This document shows, piece by piece, positions 12,353 through 64,000 of a DNA stretch of 64,000 nt. Source of the stretch: Oribacterium sinus (GTDB taxonomy: Bacteria; Bacillota; Clostridia; Lachnospirales; Lachnospiraceae); assembly GCF_014202695.1 (NCBI RefSeq), contig NZ_JACHHH010000006.1, forward strand, positions 62,001-126,000, in the 5' to 3' direction. Position 1 is the first letter of the stretch. Each line of letters begins with the position of its first letter. A model generated the notes under the pieces. That model saw nothing but the letters and a program-made list of their open reading frames with translations, searched no databases and was not told where the DNA came from. Position numbers and translations under genes: made by a program.

Positions 12353-13360
12353 TCATGAAATCTTATCAAGTAAGTTTGTCATATTCTCATATAGATTCTC
12401 TTTATTTGTCCCCTTCATTACAACAGAATAATAGGGGATAGCAGTGGAAGCTTTGTCCACAGTTAAGGCTAAGCAATAGCCTGCTTTTTTGGTGGTTCCT
12501 GTTTTTGCCGCCAAGATTTCCAAACCGTCGGGAAGCTCCTTCTCTCCGGTAGAATATAAATTTGTTGCCTTCCATACCTGGGACTTGGAAATACCGTTTT
12601 TATCTTTGTATTGTACCTGAATTTCTTTTGTGGCCAGAATTTCCCGTAAGCTGTCATATTTCATGCATTCTTTTAAAATGAGGTAGATATCATAGGGAGA
12701 AGTATAATGATTATCATCCGGCAAACCGTGGGGATTGGTAAAATGGCTGGAAAGGCAACCTAGTTCCAAAGCTTTCTCATTCATCCTGTCTACAAAAGCG
12801 GAAACAGAACCTGCCGTAGCCTCTGCCACAGCGACAGCTGCATCATTTCCGGAGGGGAGAAGCATACCGTATAAGAGATTTCTGATGCTAAGACTCTCTC
12901 CAACCTGTAAAAATGCAGTGGAAGAACCTGCTTCTTTGATTACGGAGGAGCCGGAAACCACAAATTCCTGATCTAGATTTTCCACGGAAGATACACAAAC
13001 CAGAGCAGTCATTAATTTGGTGATGCTGGCGGGATAAGTTCTGTCATAGGGATGATTAAAGGAGATAGCCCGATCCCCTTCCTTACCGTCTTCTTCCACC
13101 AAAAGAAAATATTCCGCGTCCATATCCTGGATTTGCGCGCTTGTATCTGAAGGAATAGCCAAATCCTTGGCAAAGCTTTTGGTGCTGTTCTGAATATCCT
13201 CTTCCACGGTAATGGAAGATAATCTTTGTATACTTTGTTCTTCCTGAAAGGCCTTTTCCAGCTTCGGTTTACAGGAGCTAAGGCAAAGAGGAAAAATACA
13301 CAGCAAAAGAAAGGCTTTTTTCCTTCTTAAAAAAGTACTCAAAGCCTTTCTTCTAGCCAA
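12353..13360 (-). CDS. D-alanyl-D-alanine carboxypeptidase, lipoprotein form
   Basis: A 335-residue serine peptidase S11 (DacA/DacF class, low-molecular-weight penicillin-binding protein) that trims the terminal D-Ala from peptidoglycan pentapeptides. The three active-site motifs are present: Ser112-x-x-Lys115 in ASITKLMT, SGNDAAV, and AKTGTT near residue 285. The N-terminus is basic and hydrophobic and ends in LCLSSC, a lipobox with Cys30, so it is likely a lipoprotein. The start is TTG at 13360 after GTGGAGG; a later TTG at 13342 is an alternative. It follows mgsA directly. Confidence 0.92.
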   Translation of the reverse strand: MARRKALSTFLRRKKAFLLLCIFPLCLSSCKPKLEKAFQEEQSIQRLSSITVEEDIQNSTKSFAKDLAIPSDTSAQIQDMDAEYFLLVEEDGKEGDRAISFNHPYDRTYPASITKLMTALVCVSSVENLDQEFVVSGSSVIKEAGSSTAFLQVGESLSIRNLLYGMLLPSGNDAAVAVAEATAGSVSAFVDRMNEKALELGCLSSHFTNPHGLPDDNHYTSPYDIYLILKECMKYDSLREILATKEIQVQYKDKNGISKSQVWKATNLYSTGEKELPDGLEILAAKTGTTKKAGYCLALTVDKASTAIPYYSVVMKGTNKENLYENMTNLLDKIS

Positions 13361-13745
13361 TATTCCTCCACTCTAACTCACCACGTTCCAGAGCGTGAAT
13401 TAATAATTCTCCTGTTGCCAGATTTGTGGCAATAGGAATATTGTAAATATCGCATAATCTGACTACGGAATTTACTTCCGGTTCCGTATCCCTTACCGGA
13501 GAGGGATCTCTTAAGAAAATTACCATATCCAAATTTCCCTGTTCAATCTGAGATGCCAGTTGTCTGGCTCCTCCGGTTTCTCCCGGGAGAAACTTATGGA
13601 TTTTCAGATTGGTAACTTCCTCTACCAAAGTGCCTGTAGTTCCGGTTGCATATAATTCATGTCTAGTCAGGATACCTCTGTAAGCAATACAGAAATTTTG
13701 CATGAGCTTCTTCTTGGAATCATGCGCAATTAAACCTACCTTCAT
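13353..13745 (-). CDS. mgsA: Methylglyoxal synthase
   Basis: MgsA converts dihydroxyacetone phosphate to methylglyoxal and phosphate, a bypass that relieves sugar-phosphate build-up. The 130-residue protein starts MKVGLIAHDSKK and has the phosphate-binding ATGTTGTLV loop, catalytic FLRDPSP and IPIATNLATGE. The ATG at 13745 is preferred over an upstream TTG at 13781 because GTAGGAGGGTAGAG directly precedes it and it avoids overlap with rodA. Its placement after rodA is common in Clostridia. Confidence 0.95.
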   Translation of the reverse strand: MKVGLIAHDSKKKLMQNFCIAYRGILTRHELYATGTTGTLVEEVTNLKIHKFLPGETGGARQLASQIEQGNLDMVIFLRDPSPVRDTEPEVNSVVRLCDIYNIPIATNLATGELLIHALERGELEWRNIG

Positions 13746-13755
13746 CTCTACCCTC

Positions 13756-14895
13756 CTACGTCTTCCTTTGTAAAGCAACATTTAAGACTATTCCGAAACC
13801 AAAGTATACGGACAGCAGGGAACTAACGCCTCGCGAAAAAAAGGGAAGTGTAATTCCGGTATTCGGAAACAGTCCGGTTGCCACCGCGATATTTGTATAG
13901 GTCTGAAATCCGATCCAGGCCATAACGCCTACACATATTAGCCGACCACTTAAGGTTTTTGCTCTATAGGCTATTATAAGACATTCTAAGATAATCAACA
14001 AGAAGATTATAATAATTATTAAAGATCCTCGAAAGCCTAATTCTTCTCCGATTACCGCGAAAATGAAGTCATTATCCTCCTCAACCAGAAAGTTTCCGTT
14101 TTTCACGGAGAAGATGGAATTATTAAAAAGTCCCTTTCCGTTAAACATTCCGGAGCCTATGGCCATAATGGACCACATTTGTTGGTAATAATCATTGCTG
14201 TTTTCTGAAGGATTTAAAAAGGTCAAAATTCTTTGTACCTGATAGCCCTGTAAAATGGGAATCTTATCATAGAGCCCTGAGGAAAAAAGGTAGAAAAGAA
14301 GACCCAAAACTACCACTACCACTCCTAAAAAGGCAAAAATCCATTTTAATTTCAGGGGAGAAGCAAAGGTCATGGCGGCAACGATGACCGTCATAATAAT
14401 GGTTGTGGATAGATTCGGCTGAATCATGACAAGTCCCACGGGAATGGAAAAGTAAAGTGCTTCCATTAATAAGGCATGAGGGTGATTGATATCCTCCTTC
14501 AGCTTCTGCAGGTAATCCGCAAAGAATAGAATCAATCCCACCTTTACGAACTCCGAGGGCTGTACCTTTCCCAAGACCGGAACGGTAATCCATCTGGTAG
14601 CACCGTGTCCGGAAGCTGTTCCGTAGATTTTAACACCGGCTAAAATCAGGACGGAGAGAACATAAATCCAGGGAGACCATTTACAAATCTTCCGGTAATC
14701 AATTAAAGAGATTCCCACACACATGGCCAGTCCTACAAAGGAGCCGAGAATCTGTCGTACCACAAGGGGATCCTTAAAGCTTTCCGCCGATGTTGCAGAG
14801 CGGACGATAAAGATTCCGATGGTATTTAAGGCAATCATGTATAGGACAAGCCGAAAATCATATTGCTTAAAGTCATAATCTAATTTCCACTTCAT
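13756..14895 (-). CDS. rodA: Rod-shape SEDS protein RodA
   Basis: A 379-residue SEDS-family membrane protein with about ten transmembrane segments. SEDS proteins polymerise glycan strands from lipid II together with a class B penicillin-binding protein. The conserved VQPSEFVKVGLILF, MIQPNLSTT and GEELGFRG-type motifs are visible, and the C-terminal NTGITLPFFSRGVSSLLS is typical. It sits 14 bases downstream of mrdA, its predicted transpeptidase partner, so this is RodA rather than FtsW. Confidence 0.95.
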   Translation of the reverse strand: MKWKLDYDFKQYDFRLVLYMIALNTIGIFIVRSATSAESFKDPLVVRQILGSFVGLAMCVGISLIDYRKICKWSPWIYVLSVLILAGVKIYGTASGHGATRWITVPVLGKVQPSEFVKVGLILFFADYLQKLKEDINHPHALLMEALYFSIPVGLVMIQPNLSTTIIMTVIVAAMTFASPLKLKWIFAFLGVVVVVLGLLFYLFSSGLYDKIPILQGYQVQRILTFLNPSENSNDYYQQMWSIMAIGSGMFNGKGLFNNSIFSVKNGNFLVEEDNDFIFAVIGEELGFRGSLIIIIIFLLIILECLIIAYRAKTLSGRLICVGVMAWIGFQTYTNIAVATGLFPNTGITLPFFSRGVSSLLSVYFGFGIVLNVALQRKT

Positions 14896-14909
14896 ATCAT
14901 CTCTTTCTC

Positions 14910-17780
14910 TTAGTCACTGACATTGACCAATAAAATGGAGCTGGCATCTCTTTGTAAAATGGTATCCATACTGAGTTTTCCGAAACAATAGTCATAAACC
15001 ATATTGGCCAGACTGGCTGCGTTACCGGAGGAATATCCAAAGGGAATAGTTACCGTAACGGAGATTTGAGGATCTTCATAAGGAGCATAGGAAACGAACA
15101 CCGCATGGTTACCTCTATCCTCTCTTTCCTGTGCAGTTCCGGTTTTACCGGCAACGGTGATGTTTTGTCCCAAGAATACATTCTTGGCCACACCCTCGGT
15201 AATGATCTTTCGGAGACCTTCATGGACCGCATTCCAGGTGCTGTCCGCATAATCCAAATGTCTCAATAGAGATGCGCCCACCTCTTCCACTGTCTTTCCC
15301 TTGGGGTCTGCAATCTTATCTACGATGGAAAGATTGTAAAGATTTCCTCCATTGGCAACAGCAGTGATGTACTTTGCCAGCTGTGCCGTGTTAAAGGCAT
15401 GGTTTCCCTGTCCAATAGCGGAACGTTCCGGATCATAGTCGGAAATTCTGGGTTCAGCTTCATCCAATTCAATACCGGACTTTTCGTTTAAGCCAAAGTC
15501 GCTTGCATATTTCCGGATTCTTTCCATTCCCAGTTCCGCATTGTAATTTCCCTCTGCATCCGTTGCCAAACGATGTCCTAAATCCGCAAAGAAATAGTTA
15601 CAGGAATTTTTGATACCATCCACCAAGGTTTCATTTCCGTGGTGGGAAGGCCAAATCCAGCAACGAATATTCGGTGTAACTTCCTCATATTTACCGGTAC
15701 AGTCAATGACAGTGCTTAAATCCAATACCTTTTCTTCCAAGGAAGCAATGGAGCTAATGGGCTTAAAGGAGGAACCGGGAGCCAACTGGGTTTGGGTTGC
15801 ACCGTTAAGCAGCGGTAAGGATAAGTCTTCATTACATTTTTTTAAATAAGCGGCATCATTAATCCGATTGTTGTCAAAGCCGGGATAGCTGACCAAAGCA
15901 CGAACCTTTCCGGTCTTTACATCCGTCACCACCACGGAACCGTTACAGGGATCCAGAGCGAACTGTGCCGGAGTAAGCTGCAGCTTTCTGATTTTGTCAA
16001 TCAGGAAGGTATAGGCAAAATGACTGTCTCCCCGGGCTAAAGCATCATAGGAAGCGGCATCCTGGGGCAATACGTTTTGTTCAAAAAGAGCCATCAAAAG
16101 AAGATTGCCTCTTATTTTTTGATTTGCGATAGCGTACTTGTATAGCAGCTTTTCGAATCCGGAATCCTCTCGTAAAAAGCTCATGATTTTGTTGACAAAG
16201 AGCTGATAAATCTGTGTACTGTCCGAATATTCTTCCGATAAGTCCAGCTTGGTCGTGTCAATCCATCCCTCTTCTATTCCTTTTTTAATAAAATCATGGA
16301 GGGATATGCTGTCGCTTTTCCAAGACGCCAGGGCCTGGGAGGCTTTAAATCGGGAGTCCTCAGGATTTACGATTCCGCCTTCTTTTCCTAATAGGTAATC
16401 GTAGATATAAACCATATAGCCCTGCATTTCCTGGGGAAGAGCGGATAATTCTCCGCCGCTATCCTGCATAAGGACAGCTTCCACTTGAGAAAGCACGGCC
16501 TCTTTATTTTCCTGAAAGAGAGACCCGATCTGCTTTTCTGCATTTCCGGCATCCTCTGCGGTAAAATGCTCTTTATTCAGGACATTGTTATTAATGAGCT
16601 GGTAATAAGCGTCCTTTACGGGAATCATCAGCTGGGACTGCTTCAAAGCACTTTGGTCCAGCTCATTCTGCTCCGTAATCTTGGATGCCAAAATTCCGGC
16701 TAATTCCTGTTCCAAAAGATGGTATATGGAAATCTGGTCGTTAGCGGAAATGGTGGTATAAATATCATTTCCCGCTCCGGGCTTTTCCTCGGAGATCACT
16801 TCCATAATACTTCCCACGTTGTTCAGATACATTTCCTTGTATCCTTTTTTTCCTTTTAAGACAAGATCCTCACTCTTTTCCAGTCCCCAAACGCCGACCA
16901 CATCATTTACCGCATAGGAGCTGTCCAGCTTTTGTAAATCCGCCAGCTGATTTTCCTGTACCTGACCGGTATATCCTACGATATGGGAAAGGTAAGGGGC
17001 ATAATTGTATTTTCGAACAGAGACATTTTCAATATCCACGCCGGGGAGATCATACTTGGATTCCAGAATCTCCGCCATACATTCCCGGGAAACATTGTCC
17101 ACAATGGTGGTGCTCATATAACGCTGATAGGAGGTCAGTCTAAGGGTATAAATAATACCGATCATATCCAGGGTAGTTTCATCCGACAAAGTAATGGGCT
17201 TCCCGTCCTCATCCGTAAGCTTGCTAAAGTTATATAATTTTTTTGCCTGTAAGAAGCATTGCTCAGCGGTACTGTTGGCTTCCTTTTCACTTAATTTCTC
17301 CGGCGTTTTTCGGAAAACATTGGCAATGAGGCGTCGTCTGTCCTGATCGCTTGTGGTGGTATAGACAAAGCTTCCGTCTTCCTGCTTTTGTACTTTAAAC
17401 TGACTTTTAACGGGATATTGATACTTTTCAATAATTTCCGCCAGCTTTTTTAACATTAAATTTCGTTTATTGATTCCGGCACTGGTTCCTGAGAAGCTTC
17501 CGGTTTCCGCAATCGTTATGTTGTATTGTAATTCATTGTAAGCCAAAAGCTTTCCGTCTTTATCGTAAATATTTCCTCTGGTTCCGGGAATCACCAAATC
17601 CTGTCTGGTGTTTTTTTGGTATTCCTGCAAATAATCATTTCCATGCAATATCTGCAGACGAAAAAGATGCAGTGTTAAAACGGAAAATAAAAGAAAAAAA
17701 ACAATGGATAATGCAAAGAGTCTGGAGGAAAACAGGCGGTTTAGCATTTCTTTGAGAAAACCAAATAACTCTTTCATCAT
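14910..17780 (-). CDS. mrdA: Penicillin-binding protein 2 (elongasome transpeptidase) with large insertion
   Basis: A 956-residue class B penicillin-binding protein, much longer than the ~620-650 typical of PBP2 in Gram-negatives. One membrane segment lies at about 20-42, followed by the GTRGNIYDKDGKLLAYN dimerisation-domain signature. The transpeptidase motifs are GSSFKPIS near residue 670, SCN in NSCNYFFADLG near 735, and GKTGTAQ near 885. A helical, Gln/Glu-rich insertion of roughly 190 residues lies before DPCNGSVVVTDVKTG. It overlaps mreD by four bases and precedes rodA. Beta-lactams would acylate the first Ser. Confidence 0.94.
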   Translation of the reverse strand: MMKELFGFLKEMLNRLFSSRLFALSIVFFLLFSVLTLHLFRLQILHGNDYLQEYQKNTRQDLVIPGTRGNIYDKDGKLLAYNELQYNITIAETGSFSGTSAGINKRNLMLKKLAEIIEKYQYPVKSQFKVQKQEDGSFVYTTTSDQDRRRLIANVFRKTPEKLSEKEANSTAEQCFLQAKKLYNFSKLTDEDGKPITLSDETTLDMIGIIYTLRLTSYQRYMSTTIVDNVSRECMAEILESKYDLPGVDIENVSVRKYNYAPYLSHIVGYTGQVQENQLADLQKLDSSYAVNDVVGVWGLEKSEDLVLKGKKGYKEMYLNNVGSIMEVISEEKPGAGNDIYTTISANDQISIYHLLEQELAGILASKITEQNELDQSALKQSQLMIPVKDAYYQLINNNVLNKEHFTAEDAGNAEKQIGSLFQENKEAVLSQVEAVLMQDSGGELSALPQEMQGYMVYIYDYLLGKEGGIVNPEDSRFKASQALASWKSDSISLHDFIKKGIEEGWIDTTKLDLSEEYSDSTQIYQLFVNKIMSFLREDSGFEKLLYKYAIANQKIRGNLLLMALFEQNVLPQDAASYDALARGDSHFAYTFLIDKIRKLQLTPAQFALDPCNGSVVVTDVKTGKVRALVSYPGFDNNRINDAAYLKKCNEDLSLPLLNGATQTQLAPGSSFKPISSIASLEEKVLDLSTVIDCTGKYEEVTPNIRCWIWPSHHGNETLVDGIKNSCNYFFADLGHRLATDAEGNYNAELGMERIRKYASDFGLNEKSGIELDEAEPRISDYDPERSAIGQGNHAFNTAQLAKYITAVANGGNLYNLSIVDKIADPKGKTVEEVGASLLRHLDYADSTWNAVHEGLRKIITEGVAKNVFLGQNITVAGKTGTAQEREDRGNHAVFVSYAPYEDPQISVTVTIPFGYSSGNAASLANMVYDYCFGKLSMDTILQRDASSILLVNVSD

Positions 17781-55869: not shown

Positions 55870-57867
55870 CTACTCTGTCTCGTCAAGCTTAGGATAGGGC
55901 TTCCTTGCACTTTCAAAGCCGTTGTCCTTGGTAATATGCAATCGATCACAAGCTTTAAAAAATAGTTTACTGTTTTTTCTGGATAAGGAAAATTCTTCTC
56001 TCAAGTCCTCTACAGTGATTTCTCCCTTGCTCTGTAATTTTTCCAAAGTAAATTCTTTTAACTTGGAAAATAAATTACCCAAAGTATAATATTCCCCTTC
56101 CAGTTGCACCAGGGTTCCCTTCTCTTCCAAACAAGCAACGATATCCAACAGGATTTTTTCTTCCTCCTTGCTCCATAAGGGCTCCGTAATTTTCGGGAAA
56201 GAAAATTTAGACTTTTGCATTAGAGTAATCAAGGTATTGGCAATATTGGTGTATTTTTCATCCTTTTTCATCTTATAATCTTTTATGGCTAGAATATCAT
56301 GAGATATTCTGAAAATTTCCTTTTCACGCCAATATTCCAGAAGTGCTTTATAAATGTTTCTGTTGTAAGAGCTAAAAAAACGACTGTACAATACCGATGT
56401 TTTTTCTCCAATTTTATAAGGATTTCTTTGATAAAAATCCTTCATATAGTATTGAATTTGCTTTTCCTTCTCTTCCAAATCTTCCCCGGGAATCAGATAC
56501 TTTTCTCCTTGCAAAAGGATGCTGATAAGTTCTCCCTTTTCTTCCTTATCTCTTAAGGCATTTTCGATATTGCCATATCCGGGAAAAGCTTTTCGAATAG
56601 CGGAGAGAGCCAAAAAAATGCCTTTTTTCTTGTGAAAAAAATTCTGAAGCAAACTTCCTTCATCCGCATCTTCCAGGCTTCTCAGTCGTTCCGTTTGAAA
56701 ACGCCCTCTTCTATGCCTCCCCCTTGGTAAAGGATCTATCACTTTTCCCCCGCCAATGCTTAGCTTTTGGGATTCGTCTCTTAGAATAAATCGGTCTCCG
56801 CTTAAGGCTACAACAGGCTCTTCACACTGCAACTGAACCAAGGCTGAGCTCTTATTGGGGATTTCCTCCCCCTCCAAGCAGACAAGCTTGCAGAGCACAT
56901 GTCTTGTCCCTAAAAGAAGTTCCAGCTTTCTGTTGTTTTTTATGGATTGTTCTAAGGCATTGTCTACTTGAACTCTGCAATCCAATAAAGAACTGGGATA
57001 AAGTAAGTCCTTCTCCGCCAGCACATCTCCTTTTTGACAAAGAGACTTATCTATTGAGGATAAATTCACGGCAACTCTCTCTCCGCCCACCGCAAAGTCA
57101 CTGTCTTTGCCATGAACCTGAAGATTTCTGACTTTTATCGGTAAATTCTTCGGATAGAGGGCATACTCTTTTTTTAACTCTATTCTTCCGGACATTGCCG
57201 TTCCGGTAAGAACGGTTCCTGCCCCGGCAATGGAAAACACCCGATCCACAAACATTCTGAAAATTCCTTGTTCCGGCTTCCCTTGAATAAATTCATGTAA
57301 AGTAGATAGATATTTTATTAAATCCGGAATCCCTTCTTTGCTAAAAGAAGAAAGGGGAAAAATCGGTACGGTAAAAGAAAATTGCTTCTCCAGATACTCG
57401 GTAATTTCCATTTTTCTTTGTTCCACTTCTTCCGGAGAAACAAGATCAATCATAGTTAGACAGATAATAAAATTCTTGATTCCAAGAAGAGACAGAATGC
57501 TTAGATGCTCTCTGGTTTGGGGCATAATCCCTTCCTTGGCGGAGATAACCACCATAACCAAATCCATTCCCACAGCTCCGGCTACCATGGTTTTTACAAA
57601 TTTTTCATGTCCGGGAGTATCAACGATTCCAATTTTCTGCCCGTCCGGAAGAGATAATGAGGTAAAGCCCAGCTCAATGGTCATACCTCTCTTTTTTTCT
57701 TCTTCCAGTCGATCCGCATCATATCCGGTTAATGCCTTAATTAAGGCGGTTTTTCCATGATCAATATGCCCTGCAGTTCCGATAATCAGATGCTTCGATT
57801 CTTTCTTTTCCTCAGGCTTTTCTACTTTGAAGGATTGGTGAAAATCAAGATTCTGCGTACTCTCCAT
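55870..57867 (-). CDS. selB: Selenocysteine-specific elongation factor SelB
   Basis: A 665-residue GTPase that delivers Sec-tRNA(Sec) to UGA codons with a SECIS element. The G1 motif GTAGHIDHGKT is at residues 30-40, with DTPGHEKF and TMID following. The C-terminal ~300 residues form the winged-helix mRNA-binding region of SelB. The N-terminus is about 25 residues longer than usual and no internal ATG offers a shorter start. The gene sits just downstream of the prd operon, whose prdB needs it. selA, selD and the tRNA(Sec) gene were not found in this window. Confidence 0.96.
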   Translation of the reverse strand: MESTQNLDFHQSFKVEKPEEKKESKHLIIGTAGHIDHGKTALIKALTGYDADRLEEEKKRGMTIELGFTSLSLPDGQKIGIVDTPGHEKFVKTMVAGAVGMDLVMVVISAKEGIMPQTREHLSILSLLGIKNFIICLTMIDLVSPEEVEQRKMEITEYLEKQFSFTVPIFPLSSFSKEGIPDLIKYLSTLHEFIQGKPEQGIFRMFVDRVFSIAGAGTVLTGTAMSGRIELKKEYALYPKNLPIKVRNLQVHGKDSDFAVGGERVAVNLSSIDKSLCQKGDVLAEKDLLYPSSLLDCRVQVDNALEQSIKNNRKLELLLGTRHVLCKLVCLEGEEIPNKSSALVQLQCEEPVVALSGDRFILRDESQKLSIGGGKVIDPLPRGRHRRGRFQTERLRSLEDADEGSLLQNFFHKKKGIFLALSAIRKAFPGYGNIENALRDKEEKGELISILLQGEKYLIPGEDLEEKEKQIQYYMKDFYQRNPYKIGEKTSVLYSRFFSSYNRNIYKALLEYWREKEIFRISHDILAIKDYKMKKDEKYTNIANTLITLMQKSKFSFPKITEPLWSKEEEKILLDIVACLEEKGTLVQLEGEYYTLGNLFSKLKEFTLEKLQSKGEITVEDLREEFSLSRKNSKLFFKACDRLHITKDNGFESARKPYPKLDETE

Positions 57868-58102: not shown

Positions 58103-58149
58103 ATTTATTCTAAAAGGCAGTAAATAATCAAAATAATAAAGAAATTTTC

Positions 58150-58471
58150 GGCAATATAGGTCTGAATATGGGGTAGTCTAAGCCCGATACTTGCCAAAAT
58201 CCGGCGAAGTGAAGAACTGTGAAAATCAATAAATGAAGCGAATAATGCAGTATAGGTCTATAATAGGGGCAATCTGAGCCCGTCAGTACTTACTGAAAGC
58301 GAGCAAGGCGAAGCTTGAAGTTAGTACTGTTACGAAGGCGAGGTTAGCGGGAGCGTGCCCCAATTATAGACCTATACTGCATTAGAGCGCATTTTTATAA
58401 TTAATATAGTCCTTCAATACATAGGATTAAGCTAACGAGAGCTTGCCCTGATTTCAGACTTATATTAATTA
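58150..58471. repeat. Diverged palindromic repeat element interrupted by a second copy
   Basis: The left part (58153-58240) begins AATATAGGTCTGAA and the right part (about 58420-58471) ends with TTTCAGACTTATATT, its near reverse complement. The left half resembles the left half of the inner element, including GTCTAAGCCCG. The best explanation is an older copy of the same element family interrupted by the inner copy at about 58243. A separate reading is that 58400-58471 is a third, deleted copy, since TAATTAATATAGTC there pairs with GACTTATATTAATTA. Confidence 0.6.
58244..58383. repeat. 140-bp palindromic element with perfect 21-bp terminal arms
   Basis: AATGCAGTATAGGTCTATAAT (21 bases; 58244-58264) and its exact reverse complement at 58363-58383 bound the element. 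After one mismatch, six more bases pair (GGGGCA with TGCCCC). An internal stem of 11 bases with one mismatch pairs 58283-58293 with 58320-58330. The whole unit can fold into a long hairpin or cruciform. It encodes no protein and lies in the 3' untranslated region of the prd transcript. It resembles a non-autonomous miniature transposable element. Confidence 0.85.
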
Positions 58472-58530: not shown

Positions 58531-59001
58531 TTATCTTTTCACTGCCCTCATTTTCAGCTTCAAAAGTGCCTTTGCCTTCTTTGCATCTTGAGCAACGATA
58601 TTATTTTCTCCGACAACGTTGGTTTCAATGCCTTCTTCACTCTTGTTAAAATCCACAATAGTGTTCATATATTGATTCGTAACCACAAAGGCACCCTGGG
58701 TTCCCACAAAGGAAACTCCTACAACCGCAATATCTCTTTTACCGATTTCTTCAATGGCTTGAGCAAAATCCACGTTGCTGTTTCCCCAGCTGTCCTCACT
58801 GACAATTGCCCCTTTTACACGAAGGGCTTCAGCCCAGGCACCTACACGACTACCGGTAAAAAGTTTATTAACGTTATCCTGTGGAATTCCGGCAATTATA
58901 ATACCTACAAAGTCCAAGTCAGTATCATCGCAAAGCTCTTCTACCAGAGGGTCACGAAAATGATGCAAGGTGGTTTCTTTGGTTGATGGTCCAATTCCCA
59001 T
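58531..59001 (-). CDS. prdE: Proline reductase-associated protein PrdE (C-terminal-half PrdA paralogue)
   Basis: A 156-residue protein aligning by eye with PrdA residues 418 to about 572: GIGPSTKETTLHHFRDPLV against CIGPASKEMSRHYWREPLV, and IGKRDIAVVGVSFVGTQGAFVV against IGKRGIKVVGMSFCANQGALVV. The cysteine that PrdA converts into pyruvoyl is Gly2 here, so no pyruvoyl group can form. The ATG at 59001 follows GAGGAGGAGC and lies 12 bases after prdD. In other prd operons PrdE has an unproven role; with PrdD it may form a structural partner of the reductase. Confidence 0.88.
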   Translation of the reverse strand: MGIGPSTKETTLHHFRDPLVEELCDDTDLDFVGIIIAGIPQDNVNKLFTGSRVGAWAEALRVKGAIVSEDSWGNSNVDFAQAIEEIGKRDIAVVGVSFVGTQGAFVVTNQYMNTIVDFNKSEEGIETNVVGENNIVAQDAKKAKALLKLKMRAVKR

Positions 59002-59013
59002 AAGCTCCTCCTC

Positions 59014-59790
59014 TTAATATAATGCTCGAATAGCGCCATCACGATATTCATTGGGAGAAATAATCATCGGCGCACCGGTAATATCAATAATTGAATGAGA
59101 TCCTATAAATCCGGAAGGTTCATCCGGAAGAAATCTGGTATCATACATAGCTCCTTGACCGGAAACCATCTTCACCAAAACCACTTTATCCTTACCCGGA
59201 CGTTCTACATCCTTAAAATCATGACGCTCCGTACAGAAGGAACCATTGGTTTTCTTCAATACTTCGCGAATTTCCTGACAGAAATGATCACATAGTCTAT
59301 GGCAGGCATCAGGCCCCGGTCTGGAATATCCGGCCTTCGCTTGTAATACCACATCCATTAGAATGATGATATCCTCAGGTCCCGGAGTCCCGGCACGGCC
59401 AAATACCACCTGCTCATCTAAAAATCCGTCGGAATTACCAAAAGCGGAGACATAATTTCCTTCCGTATCCGTAGCAGTAAGGATTACATACACTCCGGTT
59501 AAAGTATGGCTAATTCCTTCTCCTATTTTACCCAATACTTTGGTAGAAATAGGCATTATATCCATAATAGAATTAATGGGAATGTGTCTTTCATTTTTAT
59601 GAATGATTTTTAGACTGCAATCTTCAATCAGCTCTTCCTGCTTAGCGAAGTCCTTTAAACGATTGGGATTAATCACCAAGCTATATTCTTTATTTTCCTC
59701 TTTTTTTAAGGAGACTTTCTCTCCCTCTGAAACAGCACGAACATGAAAAGCTTTAATCGCTAACTGTCTCAATACTCTTTCTTCACTCAT
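59014..59790 (-). CDS. prdD: Proline reductase-associated protein PrdD (N-terminal-half PrdA paralogue)
   Basis: A 258-residue protein aligning by eye with PrdA residues ~164-417. Shared phrases include DIMPISTK/DVQPIATK, YVSAFGNSDGFLDEQVVFGRAGTPG, RPGPDACHRLCDHF and GQGAMYDTRFLPDEPSGFIGSHSIIDI, ending at DGAIRALY, equivalent to PrdA DGCIHALT. The start ATG at 59790 (MSEERVLRQL) follows TTGGAGGATAGA; the open frame runs upstream to 59856 but crosses a strong terminator hairpin, so that start is rejected. Function unproven. Confidence 0.88.
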   Translation of the reverse strand: MSEERVLRQLAIKAFHVRAVSEGEKVSLKKEENKEYSLVINPNRLKDFAKQEELIEDCSLKIIHKNERHIPINSIMDIMPISTKVLGKIGEGISHTLTGVYVILTATDTEGNYVSAFGNSDGFLDEQVVFGRAGTPGPEDIIILMDVVLQAKAGYSRPGPDACHRLCDHFCQEIREVLKKTNGSFCTERHDFKDVERPGKDKVVLVKMVSGQGAMYDTRFLPDEPSGFIGSHSIIDITGAPMIISPNEYRDGAIRALY

Positions 59791-59855: not shown

Positions 59856-60581
59856 TTATACCTTCGCAACGTATTCATATGGCAAAGGAACAATCTTACC
59901 GGCAGACTCGATTTCCTCAAGCTGCTCTAAGGTATCCTTTACGATATTGTATTGCATTTCTCTGTTGTTTGGCTCTCCGGCATTTGCACCCATCGGAACG
60001 AGAGGAGCAACTGCTCTGGGGGAACCGGTCTGTCTTACGACAGGAGGTAACGCAGCAATGATAATTGTAGGAATTCCTGCGGCCTCAATAGCTCTCTGCA
60101 CAAGCACGGCAGAACGATGGCAAGTTCCTCAGCCAGCGGTGAGGATTACGGCGTCTACGCCCTCCTCTTTCAGCTGTCTGGCAATTTCAGGACCTGTCTC
60201 GTTTTTGAACTTTTCCTGGTTTCCACCACCGCCCATGAATCCGAAGTGTACAGGAGCTACCCCCTTAATTACACCATCTTTAGCCAACTCATGAAGACGA
60301 TCAATTGGGAACATACAGTTGATATCTTTGTTAACGTCACCGTTATCGTAACCACCATGTGATACCATTAGTTCGCTAGAAGGCATTGTATCCTTGATAA
60401 CTCTAAAGGTAAAATCACCAGCCAGGTTAAAACGCTTGTCATCTTTATGGTGCACACCTGCGGCCGTTGCAATGGCAATAACCATATCCTTTAACGGCTT
60501 TGTGACAGGAGCCCATACAGGTGGAGGAGTAACAGGTACGAAGATTTCAGACTGCATCCCTTTTACTACAGTATTACCCAT
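59856..60581 (-). CDS. prdB: D-proline reductase selenoprotein subunit PrdB
   Basis: PrdB is the 26-kDa subunit that carries the selenocysteine attacking proline; with PrdA it reductively opens D-proline to 5-aminovalerate in Stickland fermentation. The 241-residue product reads through TGA at 60129-60131 (residue 151) in the motif ILTAG-Sec-GTCHRSAV, matching known PrdB proteins. Upstream and downstream of TGA are in the same frame and both match the family, so it is not a frameshift. A SECIS-like stem follows. selB lies 2 kb downstream. A standard translation would split this gene. Confidence 0.95.
60094..60114 (-). promoter_or_regulatory. Candidate bacterial SECIS stem-loop in prdB
   Basis: TTCTGC and GCAGAG (minus strand; plus-strand arms 60109-60114 and 60094-60099) pair over six bases with one G-U pair and a nine-base loop (CGTGCTTGT). 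It starts 14 bases after the TGA, the distance range expected for bacterial SECIS elements. The fold was judged by eye. Confidence 0.6.
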
Positions 60582-60865: not shown

Positions 60866-62731
60866 TTATGCGTTCATGTACTTCTCTTTGAACTTATCAC
60901 TCATTGGAAGAGAAGTTTCATTCTCAACAAGCTCAATGGGCTTTCCGGTAACATTGGAAACCAACTCAATGTTCTGGGTCTTTACGTTTGGATTCCACTT
61001 ACGTTCAGCCTTCTTCACCTCTTCGCCTGCCATCTCAGCCTTCAACATGCTTAATGCACGGATAGCGTCCTCAGTACAAAGGGTGTTGTTAGCAAGAATC
61101 TCGTTCTCAATTCCGCCTTCAGATTTGTTGTTATCTACCATGCTGGTCATGTACTTGTTACCTACAACCAGAGCACCCTGGTTAGCACAGAAGGACATAC
61201 CTACAACCTTGATTCCTCTCTTACCGATCTGCTCGATGTGAGAAGCAAAGTCAATGTGGTTGTTTCCGAATCCCTCAGTGGTTACAAATGCACCATCCGG
61301 TCCGATAGCCTCTAAGGTCATACCTACACGACGGGATACATAGAACTTCTCAGCGTTAATCTGTGGAGATCCAACCAATACAACACCGGTTAAATCCACT
61401 TCATGATCATGAAGAACCTCTAATACCAACGGCTCTCTCCAGTAGTGACGAGACATCTCCTTAGATGCAGGTCCGATACAGGTTAATGCATGGATACATC
61501 CATCAAGAATCTCTAATGGAGAAACTACTACCGGAACGTTTCCGATATCAACGTTAGGCTTAGCACCAAGTACACCAACAGGCTCAACAGGAAGGAGTAA
61601 GTTATCATGCATCGCTCCCTGTCCCATGATTTCCTTAACGATAACAACCTTCTTCTTACCCGGTCTTCTTACCTGGTTAAAGGTCTCAGTATCAACAACC
61701 AAGCTCTCATCAGCCTTCTTTAATACCTTACGAATTTCATCGGTGATTAAGTCAGTTGCTGTGTGAGCAGCCAATGGTCCCGGACGCTCCATGTTAGTCT
61801 TCTCTTTGATGGTTACATTGGTCTTAATGAAGATATCTCCCTTGTCAGGACAACCGGGACGTCCCCACATAATATTCTCATCAAGGTATCCTTCGGAGGA
61901 TCCGAACTCACCAATCTGAACACCATTCTCATCAGTTCCGGAAACCACCATAACAACGCCGTCTAATACACGGGTTGTTCCGGTTCCAACTTCATCATCA
62001 CCCTCTTTGGTTGCGATAGGCTGAACATCCATGATGGTGTTGGAGTAGGTATGATATTGATCCGGAGTAATGATATCAATCTTCAGATCCACTACAAGCT
62101 TCTGAGAATCAACACATTCCTTTTCAATGCCTTCGCGAATGGTAAGAACGGTACCCTCTAACTTGGTTTCAGGACCTCTCTTAACTTCAGTAATCTTGAA
62201 GTGCTTTCTGGTAAGACTGCGAACTACCACTTCCTCATCTGTAGCAACCGCTCCGGGAGCTGCAACACCTGCATTACCTGCTACAGCCTGTGCTGCATTA
62301 GATACTACAGGAACGCCGGATGTGCCGCCTAAAGCACCTACAGGAATCTGAATGTCGATTCCCTTACCTTCACCAATGTGAATCTTCAAGCTTCCTCCTA
62401 AGGCAGGTGCTGCTACTGCTCCTACTGAAGCTGCCGGGGCTACTACTGCCGGAGCCTCTTCTTTAGCTGCCTCTGCAGGCTTATCGGCAAGCGCTACTAA
62501 ATCTTTTGTAAGAGGTGTGAGAGAATCACAGGTCTTTAAAAGCTTAGCCCCTAAAACATCGCCAATGGTTAAACAACCATCCAACTTCAACAATCCCTGA
62601 TCTACCAAATCATCAAAGATTTCAGGATCCTCCAAGTTGTGGCTGGAGAGAACTACTCCCTCCTCAGCCCTACAGCATAACACCGCCGGACTGCTCTTGT
62701 GCTCTTCTGCATACTCTGCTGAAATAGACAT
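60866..62731 (-). CDS. prdA: D-proline reductase proprotein PrdA (pyruvoyl-forming)
   Basis: PrdA is a 621-residue proprotein that cleaves itself to give a larger beta and a smaller chain with an N-terminal pyruvoyl group; the pyruvoyl forms the Schiff base with proline. By the known Clostridium sticklandii site (ALTC within DGCIHALTCIGP), cleavage should occur before Cys418, codon 61478-61480. Two Ala/Pro/Val-rich linkers occur near residues 85-115 and 145-163. The ATG at 62731 lies 16 bases after the prdC stop. PrdD and PrdE are its cut paralogue. Confidence 0.95.
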   Translation of the reverse strand: MSISAEYAEEHKSSPAVLCCRAEEGVVLSSHNLEDPEIFDDLVDQGLLKLDGCLTIGDVLGAKLLKTCDSLTPLTKDLVALADKPAEAAKEEAPAVVAPAASVGAVAAPALGGSLKIHIGEGKGIDIQIPVGALGGTSGVPVVSNAAQAVAGNAGVAAPGAVATDEEVVVRSLTRKHFKITEVKRGPETKLEGTVLTIREGIEKECVDSQKLVVDLKIDIITPDQYHTYSNTIMDVQPIATKEGDDEVGTGTTRVLDGVVMVVSGTDENGVQIGEFGSSEGYLDENIMWGRPGCPDKGDIFIKTNVTIKEKTNMERPGPLAAHTATDLITDEIRKVLKKADESLVVDTETFNQVRRPGKKKVVIVKEIMGQGAMHDNLLLPVEPVGVLGAKPNVDIGNVPVVVSPLEILDGCIHALTCIGPASKEMSRHYWREPLVLEVLHDHEVDLTGVVLVGSPQINAEKFYVSRRVGMTLEAIGPDGAFVTTEGFGNNHIDFASHIEQIGKRGIKVVGMSFCANQGALVVGNKYMTSMVDNNKSEGGIENEILANNTLCTEDAIRALSMLKAEMAGEEVKKAERKWNPNVKTQNIELVSNVTGKPIELVENETSLPMSDKFKEKYMNA

Positions 62732-62746: not shown

Positions 62747-64000
62747 TTATGAAAATTCTATATGAATATCTTGGCCTTCCTCCACATGGATATGGAATAA
62801 TCCATCATCCAGCATGGTAGAAAAGCTGAATTCCTGCTCCACTGCCTGCTCTGTCTTTTCCTCTTCCTTCGGGAAAGGAAGCTGGCGACCCTTATCATCT
62901 ACCGGTAGCTGCTCTACAACCTTGGACTTGGTTAAGTAACGCATAGGCTCCATACCCACGGTTTCAAAGATATGATCAGTCTGATGATGAACATTCAGAT
63001 TCATCTTCGGTGCAGATCCCATAACCGTGTTGGTACAGTCACTACAGTTTCCGATAATGACATCGGTACATCCTGCATTCTTGAAGTGTAAAATCTTCTG
63101 TGCCTGTCCGGGGCAGTTTCCGGGGTTCTGGCACTTCAGTGTTCCTCGAACATCTTCAGCCTGCTTACAAGCCTGTACATCCGTAACCACGGCATTGTAC
63201 TTCTTGCACAAATCTTCCATTCTCTCCAGATTTCCGCCACAGGCACAAAGAAGAATACCCATCTTTGCTCCCTTTAAATCCTTAAAGGGTTCTGTAACCA
63301 GGATTCCACCGCTGGTTTTGGTAATCGGTGTAGAAAGATCAACAGCATGTCCGGTGAAAGGACCTCCTAAAACGATTTCTCCGTATTCCCCGTCAATACC
63401 GCCGGCCATCTCGATAAGCTCACCTACGGTAGTGCCTACAGGAACATCCATAAAGACCTGAGTCTTAGTTCCCTTCTTTAGCTTTCCGCCAACGGAAATA
63501 TTCTTTAAGAAGCAAGGCTTCTTATCCTCAATTGCCTCTGCTATGCGAAGACAGGTCTCTACGTTAATAACAACGGAGTCAGCTTCTGAAGGAAGGGAAG
63601 TGGGAGGAAGTAATTTACCAAGAACCTCACGAACAACAGCTCTTTCTTCTCCCATCGGGTAGATATCCGGTAGTAGATGAATGGAAATATTCGGGAATTT
63701 GTCCTGTAAAGAAAGAAGAACTTTAATTTCTTCCTCATGCTTCTTTTTAATGGCGATTACACCCTTAGCAGCATTGGTCACCTTCATACAGTAATCAATA
63801 CCCCGCATGGTTTTTTCAGGCTGTTCCATAATCTGCTTCATGTTATGCTCCAGCAAAGGTTCACACTCCGCTGCATTCACCAGAATATATCCGCCCTTCA
63901 AGTCGATATTCAACTTCACAGCTGTAGGGAATCCTGCACCGCCCATTCCCACAATTCCTGCGGCTTTAATCAAGTCAAGAGTATTCTCGCCCTCAATCTT
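62747..64000 (-). CDS. prdC: PrdC, RnfC-like electron transfer protein (5' end beyond window)
   Basis: At least 417 residues are visible, open to the right edge. GIVGMGGAGFPTAVKL and the SBB-like middle region are typical of RnfC/PrdC-type NADH-linked proteins. The C-terminal part has several Cys (CACGGN, CKQAEDVRGTLKCQNPGNCPGQ, IGNCSDCTNTV). PrdC is thought to pass electrons to proline reductase. Some PrdC proteins have been described as selenoproteins; in the visible part only cysteine codons are seen. prdR, found next to prdC in Clostridioides difficile, is not between prdC and prdA. Confidence 0.88.
   Translation of the reverse strand, partial: KIEGENTLDLIKAAGIVGMGGAGFPTAVKLNIDLKGGYILVNAAECEPLLEHNMKQIMEQPEKTMRGIDYCMKVTNAAKGVIAIKKKHEEEIKVLLSLQDKFPNISIHLLPDIYPMGEERAVVREVLGKLLPPTSLPSEADSVVINVETCLRIAEAIEDKKPCFLKNISVGGKLKKGTKTQVFMDVPVGTTVGELIEMAGGIDGEYGEIVLGGPFTGHAVDLSTPITKTSGGILVTEPFKDLKGAKMGILLCACGGNLERMEDLCKKYNAVVTDVQACKQAEDVRGTLKCQNPGNCPGQAQKILHFKNAGCTDVIIGNCSDCTNTVMGSAPKMNLNVHHQTDHIFETVGMEPMRYLTKSKVVEQLPVDDKGRQLPFPKEEEKTEQAVEQEFSFSTMLDDGLFHIHVEEGQDIHIEFS

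Follow-up and report, generated by a model that had tools for sequence, protein, structure and literature searches.

The window, by which we mean the whole 64,000-nucleotide stretch of Oribacterium sinus DNA analyzed here, carries a prd operon on its minus strand, in which prdC, prdA, a small CBO2463-domain gene, prdB, prdD, and prdE follow one another (table 1). From prdA through the small gene and prdB to prdD and prdE this order runs on one strand, and the A-D-E order recurs on 85 locus strands of the loci that we collected, a score that does not take in prdB. The prdD product is a member of TIGR04482 (350.5 bits vs. a cut-off of 320, profile positions 1–245 of 246). Its ORF opens at 59856, and the ATG at 59790, which lies behind GGAGG, was taken as the start; the resulting protein of 258 residues agrees with the start chosen in the initial annotation, and the stop codon is TAA. 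The in-frame TGA of prdB was read as Cys for the family search. After prdE, on the same strand, lies a 665-residue ORF (window 55870–57867) that resembles GTP-binding translation factors and that we take to be most likely selB; it adjoins a selenoprotein operon. Also downstream of prdE, positions 58140–58470 hold a repeat element with 29-nt inverted arms (97%). This 331-nt element has at least 87 matches in the genome (40 of 148 candidates were scored), several of which are 79–90% identical over nearly its full length, and it belongs to a dispersed repeat family.

Table 1. Genes and features of the prd operon in the window.
Feature	Position	Strand	Description
prdE	58531..59001	-	156 aa; Met1-Gly2-Ile-Gly-Pro; corresponds to the small, pyruvoyl-bearing chain of PrdA (418 to about 567), with Gly where that chain has Cys
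prdD-prdE gap, 12 nt	59002..59013	-	prdD stop to prdE start; contains prdE ribosome site AGGAGG
prdD	59014..59790	-	258 aa; counterpart of PrdA 166-417; C-terminal end exactly at P1
prdB	59856..60581	-	selenoprotein subunit; in-frame TGA
small CBO2463-domain gene, 81 aa	60618..60863	-	between prdA and prdB; NF041553 match
prdA	60866..62731	-	621-aa proprotein; active paralogue; TIGR04480
PrdA cleavage site ALT|CIGP, Thr417 and Cys418 codons	61478..61483	-	from coordinates and Cys418
prdC	62747..64000	-	electron-transfer protein, TIGR04481; runs past the window edge

The initial annotation regarded PrdD and PrdE as a paralogue of PrdA, with PrdD matching PrdA residues of about 164–417 and PrdE matching 418 onward, and both the homology and these extents are borne out by alignment. 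PrdD aligns to PrdA 166–416 (39% identity, E 4e-56), and its last residue, a Tyr, stands opposite PrdA Thr417, the P1 residue. Residues 3–151 of PrdE align to PrdA 419–567 (46% identity, E 2e-45), and Gly2 of PrdE stands opposite PrdA Cys418, the P1' residue, which leaves Met1 as the sole extra residue. On the PrdA model TIGR04480, PrdD spans profile positions 158–412 and PrdE spans 415–565, so that the pairwise alignments and the profile both confirm the proposed break between Thr417 and Cys418. PrdD does not contain the N-terminal ~165 residues of PrdA. At 241.6 and 179.2 bits, respectively, PrdD and PrdE stay below the TIGR04480 cut-off of 700 bits, and Gly takes the place of the cleavage Cys. 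Against PF09338, PrdE scores 47.6 bits (cut-off 22.2) and PrdD falls just under the cut-off at 19.4 bits; scans of the two proteins with Pfam and NCBIfam showed no other domain. Cys418 was taken as the cleavage residue on the basis of literature on Clostridium difficile PrdA, whose small chain begins with a pyruvoyl peptide that covers PrdA 421–427 (PMC9908766). The CIGPASK motif of four C. difficile loci has its Cys at residue 417–421.

The coincidence of the break with this site could be undone by homologues that are split elsewhere, and none was found in a survey of 134 sources, that is, the window and the loci fetched. A scan of named genomes supplied the best 77 of 352 confirmed stretches, ranked by likeness to the PrdE of the window, and the other loci were hand-picked among the matches listed in our searches; some loci share one genome. 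Across these sources, all 100 distinct split PrdD sequences end exactly at P1, all 103 distinct PrdE sequences open with a start codon followed by Gly at P1', and Cys occupies P1' in 121 of 121 distinct PrdA sequences. Three of the 103 are PrdE2 proteins of the C. difficile group, whose start is GTG as read or an ATG three codons upstream. These counts exclude one PrdD and one PrdE cut by contig ends, a start-less PrdE2 ORF (L091), two PrdA fragments, identical sequences, one D ORF shorter than 150 residues, and four E-type ORFs that start after profile column 2. The other ends, which served as a control, vary: the C-termini of PrdE fall into eight lengths in 99 rows, and the small chain of PrdA spans 173 to 299 residues. 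The ends are exact even in five Peptoniphilaceae loci where about 9–15 kb separates D from E. On the evidence of these alignments, the observation that the PrdD/PrdE break coincides with the PrdA cleavage site is confirmed.

The short gap between prdD and prdE might suggest that the two ORFs make one protein through frameshifting or readthrough, or that a sequencing error divides them. Among 95 distinct D/E pairs, the gap ranges from 8 to 113 nt, TAA, TAG, and TGA all serve as stops, and a motif resembling a ribosome site precedes E in 77 pairs. The pairs occur in all three relative frames and therefore represent two genes. Given this variation in frames, stops, and gaps, and the distant genes of the Peptoniphilaceae, we reject the single-protein explanation as extremely improbable. 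The loss of the Cys and the absence of the pair from some genomes could also be taken to mean that PrdDE is a decaying duplicate that was split and lost its Cys by neutral change. We likewise reject neutral decay, to which we give very little credence, because dN/dS is low and the ends are invariant in the 100 and 103 distinct sequences; the pair is also conserved across families and after refusion of its genes (see below). Where dS was finite, dN/dS was 0.062–0.183 for D, 0.050–0.088 for E, and 0.033–0.183 for D, E, and the fusions together, ranges in which dS is often above 1 and several dS values are saturated. Judged by these ratios, PrdD and PrdE are under purifying selection. A table of PMC6311696 gives expression values for PrdD and PrdE of C. 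difficile.

In the aligned set, Gly stands opposite Cys418 in 85 of 85 split DE sequences, 9 of 9 fusions, and all 6 members of a group closer to PrdA, and Cys is found in 107 of 107 PrdA sequences. The Cys of PF09338 that forms the pyruvoyl group is absent accordingly from PrdE, and the earlier claim that PrdDE cannot carry the cofactor is supported throughout this set as far as a pyruvoyl group derived from Cys or Ser is concerned. Many of the fold positions of PrdA are kept in DE. Several positions that are invariant in PrdA, namely H375, E367, M369, R428, and Y430, are altered in most DE sequences; H375 is changed in 80 of the 85 split DE sequences and kept in the other five. Our guess is that these five positions may be active-site residues. 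DE has a signature of its own as well. It comprises MG[IVL]GPS, with a Ser facing Ala422, and, in 84 of the 85 split DE sequences, a Trp where PrdA has Phe488 and a Lys where PrdA has Arg558. Such a signature would fit the view that PrdDE is a second enzyme or binding protein with a substrate of its own, such as another imino acid, or with an inhibitor or sensor site, rather than a partner of PrdA. We regard this as improbable given that carbonyl chemistry needs a group derived from Cys or Ser, which is absent from all aligned DE rows, and that the domain scans yielded nothing further.

The group closer to PrdA consists of six genomes (L161, L162, L166, L168, L169, and L170) in which D keeps both H375 and E367, and the loss of the active-site signature is therefore incomplete there. 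D of these genomes also keeps Thr at P1 and scores like PrdA, and E carries the usual PrdE signature. We considered that the six may represent either an early branch or an independent second fission. In a tree rooted with GrdE, from which L034, L176, L177, and L178 were left out, a single origin of all DE including these six has only 74% support because the GrdE root branch, with a length of 10, is saturated. Separately, we noted stand-alone ORFs that resemble only the first ~130–140 residues of PrdA (L043 5270–5737, L048 2029–2469, and L051 10632–11072); they adjoin prd clusters, and the N-terminal module of PrdA thus also exists as a separate gene.

Some prd clusters outside the window encode a protein of ~415 residues in which the PrdE part comes first and the PrdD part second. 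We count 21 distinct copies, 20 in the survey and one on plasmid pCR1A of Enterococcus gilvus, the latter annotated as "glycine/sarcosine/betaine reductase component B subunit." All 21 have the order E-D and all 21 end at P1; 20 of the 21 start with Met or GTG followed by Gly at P1', and the sole exception (L185 13209–14450) has an altered start. It is the first of two permuted fusions that lie in tandem at that locus (13209–15809), and its N-terminus is degenerate. In the genus of this locus, represented by three genomes (L183–L185), no D/E partner other than the permuted fusion was found, and that fusion lies about 10–11 kb from a PrdA gene of ~647 codons. We saw no fusion of PrdD and PrdE in the order of PrdA, and the Cys is present in every unpermuted full-length ORF (111 in number, 107 of them distinct). 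Refusion in the order of PrdA would close the cleavage site; only the swapped order, which leaves the site open, was observed. As for related second prd sets outside C. botulinum, those of some genomes include the permuted fusion and those of others have no D/E partner. For the second prd set of C. botulinum itself, a 2010 paper states in excerpt that PrdD and PrdE are absent (PMC3091704).

In a phylogenetic tree with 20 fusion rows, these proteins group as a single clade (SH-aLRT 100) that is nested within split DE beside Clostridium sequences; another tree, with nine fusion rows, likewise placed them as one clade inside split DE. The 20-row tree contains just 12 of the PrdA sequences and leaves out the degenerate fusion of L185 (13209–14450), L190 and L191 (copies of L108 and L100), and L176, which has a long branch. 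Two members of its fusion clade, L034 and E. gilvus, also lie on long branches, and their placement is therefore unsure. The permuted fusion is now found in several families, including that of Enterococcus. Based on these trees and alignments, it seems likely that a duplication of PrdA was followed by loss of the Cys and fission and then by one refusion in swapped order. An AlphaFold model of one fusion is confident (pLDDT 87.7, pTM 0.88), although its first seven residues are poorly ordered, and its helices and strands are those of a PrdA model (pLDDT 78.4, pTM 0.68) in permuted order, with the E part offset by 415–417 residues. Foldseek searches with the PrdA or the fusion model gave no match at E up to 0.001; among solved structures, PrdA had no related chain at E up to 0.1 and PrdE only matches at the level of chance.

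The initial annotation had also proposed that PrdDE might be a chaperone of PrdA maturation, and the distribution of the genes bears on this. Thirteen genomes were chosen rather than drawn, 11 because earlier searches had given PrdA without PrdD and 2 as positive controls, and searches for PrdE outside PrdA found none in the 11 and detected it in both controls (G091 and G301). All 11 carry PrdA with its Cys. In five of them only four candidates were scored for PrdD, and the absence of PrdD is for that reason less sure there than the absence of PrdE. Since these 11 genomes have PrdA and show no PrdE, a DE partner is not needed everywhere. Among the kin of the window, PrdD exceeds its cut-off in 4 of 41 genomes, that of the window included. 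The small CBO2463-domain gene is present in 104 of 107 PrdA loci irrespective of the state of DE (split, fused, or not found), and all 85 split-DE loci with PrdA contain it. Outside the window, a relative of the gene immediately follows 106 of 110 PrdA ORFs. We infer that this gene may be PrdH and regard it as a candidate maturation factor of PrdA. For C. difficile, the excerpted literature names PrdH as the enzyme that matures Prd.

A transient role in assembly or maturation, in which PrdDE would hold PrdA (or PrdB) in a cleavable state and stay outside the final enzyme, is consistent with its place in the same operon as PrdA, with the company of the small gene in every split-DE locus that has PrdA, and with its likeness to PrdA, which would let it occupy the place of a subunit. 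Fonknechten 2010, in the excerpted text, proposed an indirect, "protein-stabilizing role" for the two proteins and already stated their likeness to parts of PrdA (PMC3091704). The 11 genomes with PrdA and no PrdE, together with the report on PrdH, make an obligate maturation chaperone unlikely, and a chaperone alone would leave the open break after refusion unexplained. Prd purified from C. sticklandii reportedly has three subunit sizes, none of them that of PrdD or PrdE. This makes it harder to see PrdDE as a subunit bound tightly and in fixed stoichiometry; the same exclusion of PrdD and PrdE from the subunits said to make up the enzyme speaks for a chaperone. We treat the transient chaperone as an unlikely alternative. 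A general chaperone of PrdA maturation, as first proposed, is disfavored by the 11 genomes, by the presence of the small gene in nearly all PrdA loci, and by the report on PrdH.

We favor, with confidence slightly above even, the hypothesis that PrdDE is a dead PrdA core, pre-cut at the level of its genes, that partners PrdA/PrdB in the manner of a prozyme. Met-Gly is a standard substrate of methionine aminopeptidase, and the start Met would probably be removed from PrdE to leave an N-terminal Gly. With Met1 removed, PrdD and PrdE would therefore together comprise the residues of the mature PrdA core, except for a Gly where PrdA has pyruvate. The pair would fold like mature rather than uncut PrdA, the C-terminus of PrdD presumably lying close to the N-terminus of PrdE, and would dock where a PrdA core would in a mixed PrdA/PrdB assembly. 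Once docked, it could stabilize or activate PrdA/PrdB, as the prozyme does for AdoMetDC, and its free ends may be kept since the mature fold or a docking surface needs them. Because the split and the permuted forms both keep these ends, we infer that PrdDE mimics PrdA in its mature form and that its fold or its docking depends on the ends. More tentatively, and with somewhat less than even confidence, we suggest that PrdDE may be a pseudoenzyme fixed by its genes in the state after cleavage, with fission having taken over from the cutting of a proprotein, that its function needs the open ends rather than a given order of the chains, and that it takes places equivalent to those of PrdA and switches on or stabilizes PrdA/PrdB through those ends. 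The interpretation given in the initial annotation is thus supported in part. An inactive, structural pseudo-subunit would fit the change of Cys to Gly and the fixed split, and the idea that gene fission reproduces the posttranslational cleavage of PrdA stands for the covalent structure of the chains, where the permuted fusions with their open site strengthen it; a dead, pre-cut PrdA appears right, and the maturation chaperone is the weaker part.

None of the excerpts of the literature searched was found to mention that the break falls precisely at the cleavage site, that Cys has changed to Gly, or that a permuted E-D fusion exists. The permuted fusion and the exact split site appear to be new relative to that literature. 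In pyruvoyl enzymes, the cofactor and the new chain ends arise in one cleavage step, so that their roles are hard to separate. PrdDE may serve as a control, supplied by nature, for what the cut itself does, as it has no cofactor and keeps the same ends to the residue in the relatives surveyed, even after rejoining. Our hypothesis also assigns a function that can be tested to two genes that have names but no explanation in a main energy pathway of Stickland fermenters. Furthermore, the annotation "component B subunit" on a protein of ~415 residues can denote a circularly permuted partner and not a reductase.

The genes of the window are members of the PrdD (TIGR04482) and PrdE families of clostridial prd operons. 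By sequence, PrdDE has the same core as PrdA (TIGR04480) and corresponds to the two mature chains minus the N-terminal ~165 residues, whereas it differs from PrdA in having no cleavage Cys, in being encoded by two genes, and in changes to several residues that are invariant in PrdA. GrdE and its kin, the proproteins of the glycine, sarcosine, and betaine reductases (PF09338), belong to the same superfamily, and the Cys of GrdE falls in the same column (16 sequences); GrdE is unsplit and has the Cys, whereas PrdDE is split and has none. The prozyme of AdoMetDC is eukaryotic and its fold is not known to be related to that of PrdDE, and we know of no prozyme that is genetically split and pre-cut. 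In trypanosomes, according to an excerpt of PMC5201418, this catalytically dead prozyme heterodimerizes with its paralogue AdoMetDC, a pyruvoyl enzyme, and thereby activates it. PrdDE resembles it in being a paralogue that has lost its cofactor residue and is under purifying selection, and by analogy it may work alike.
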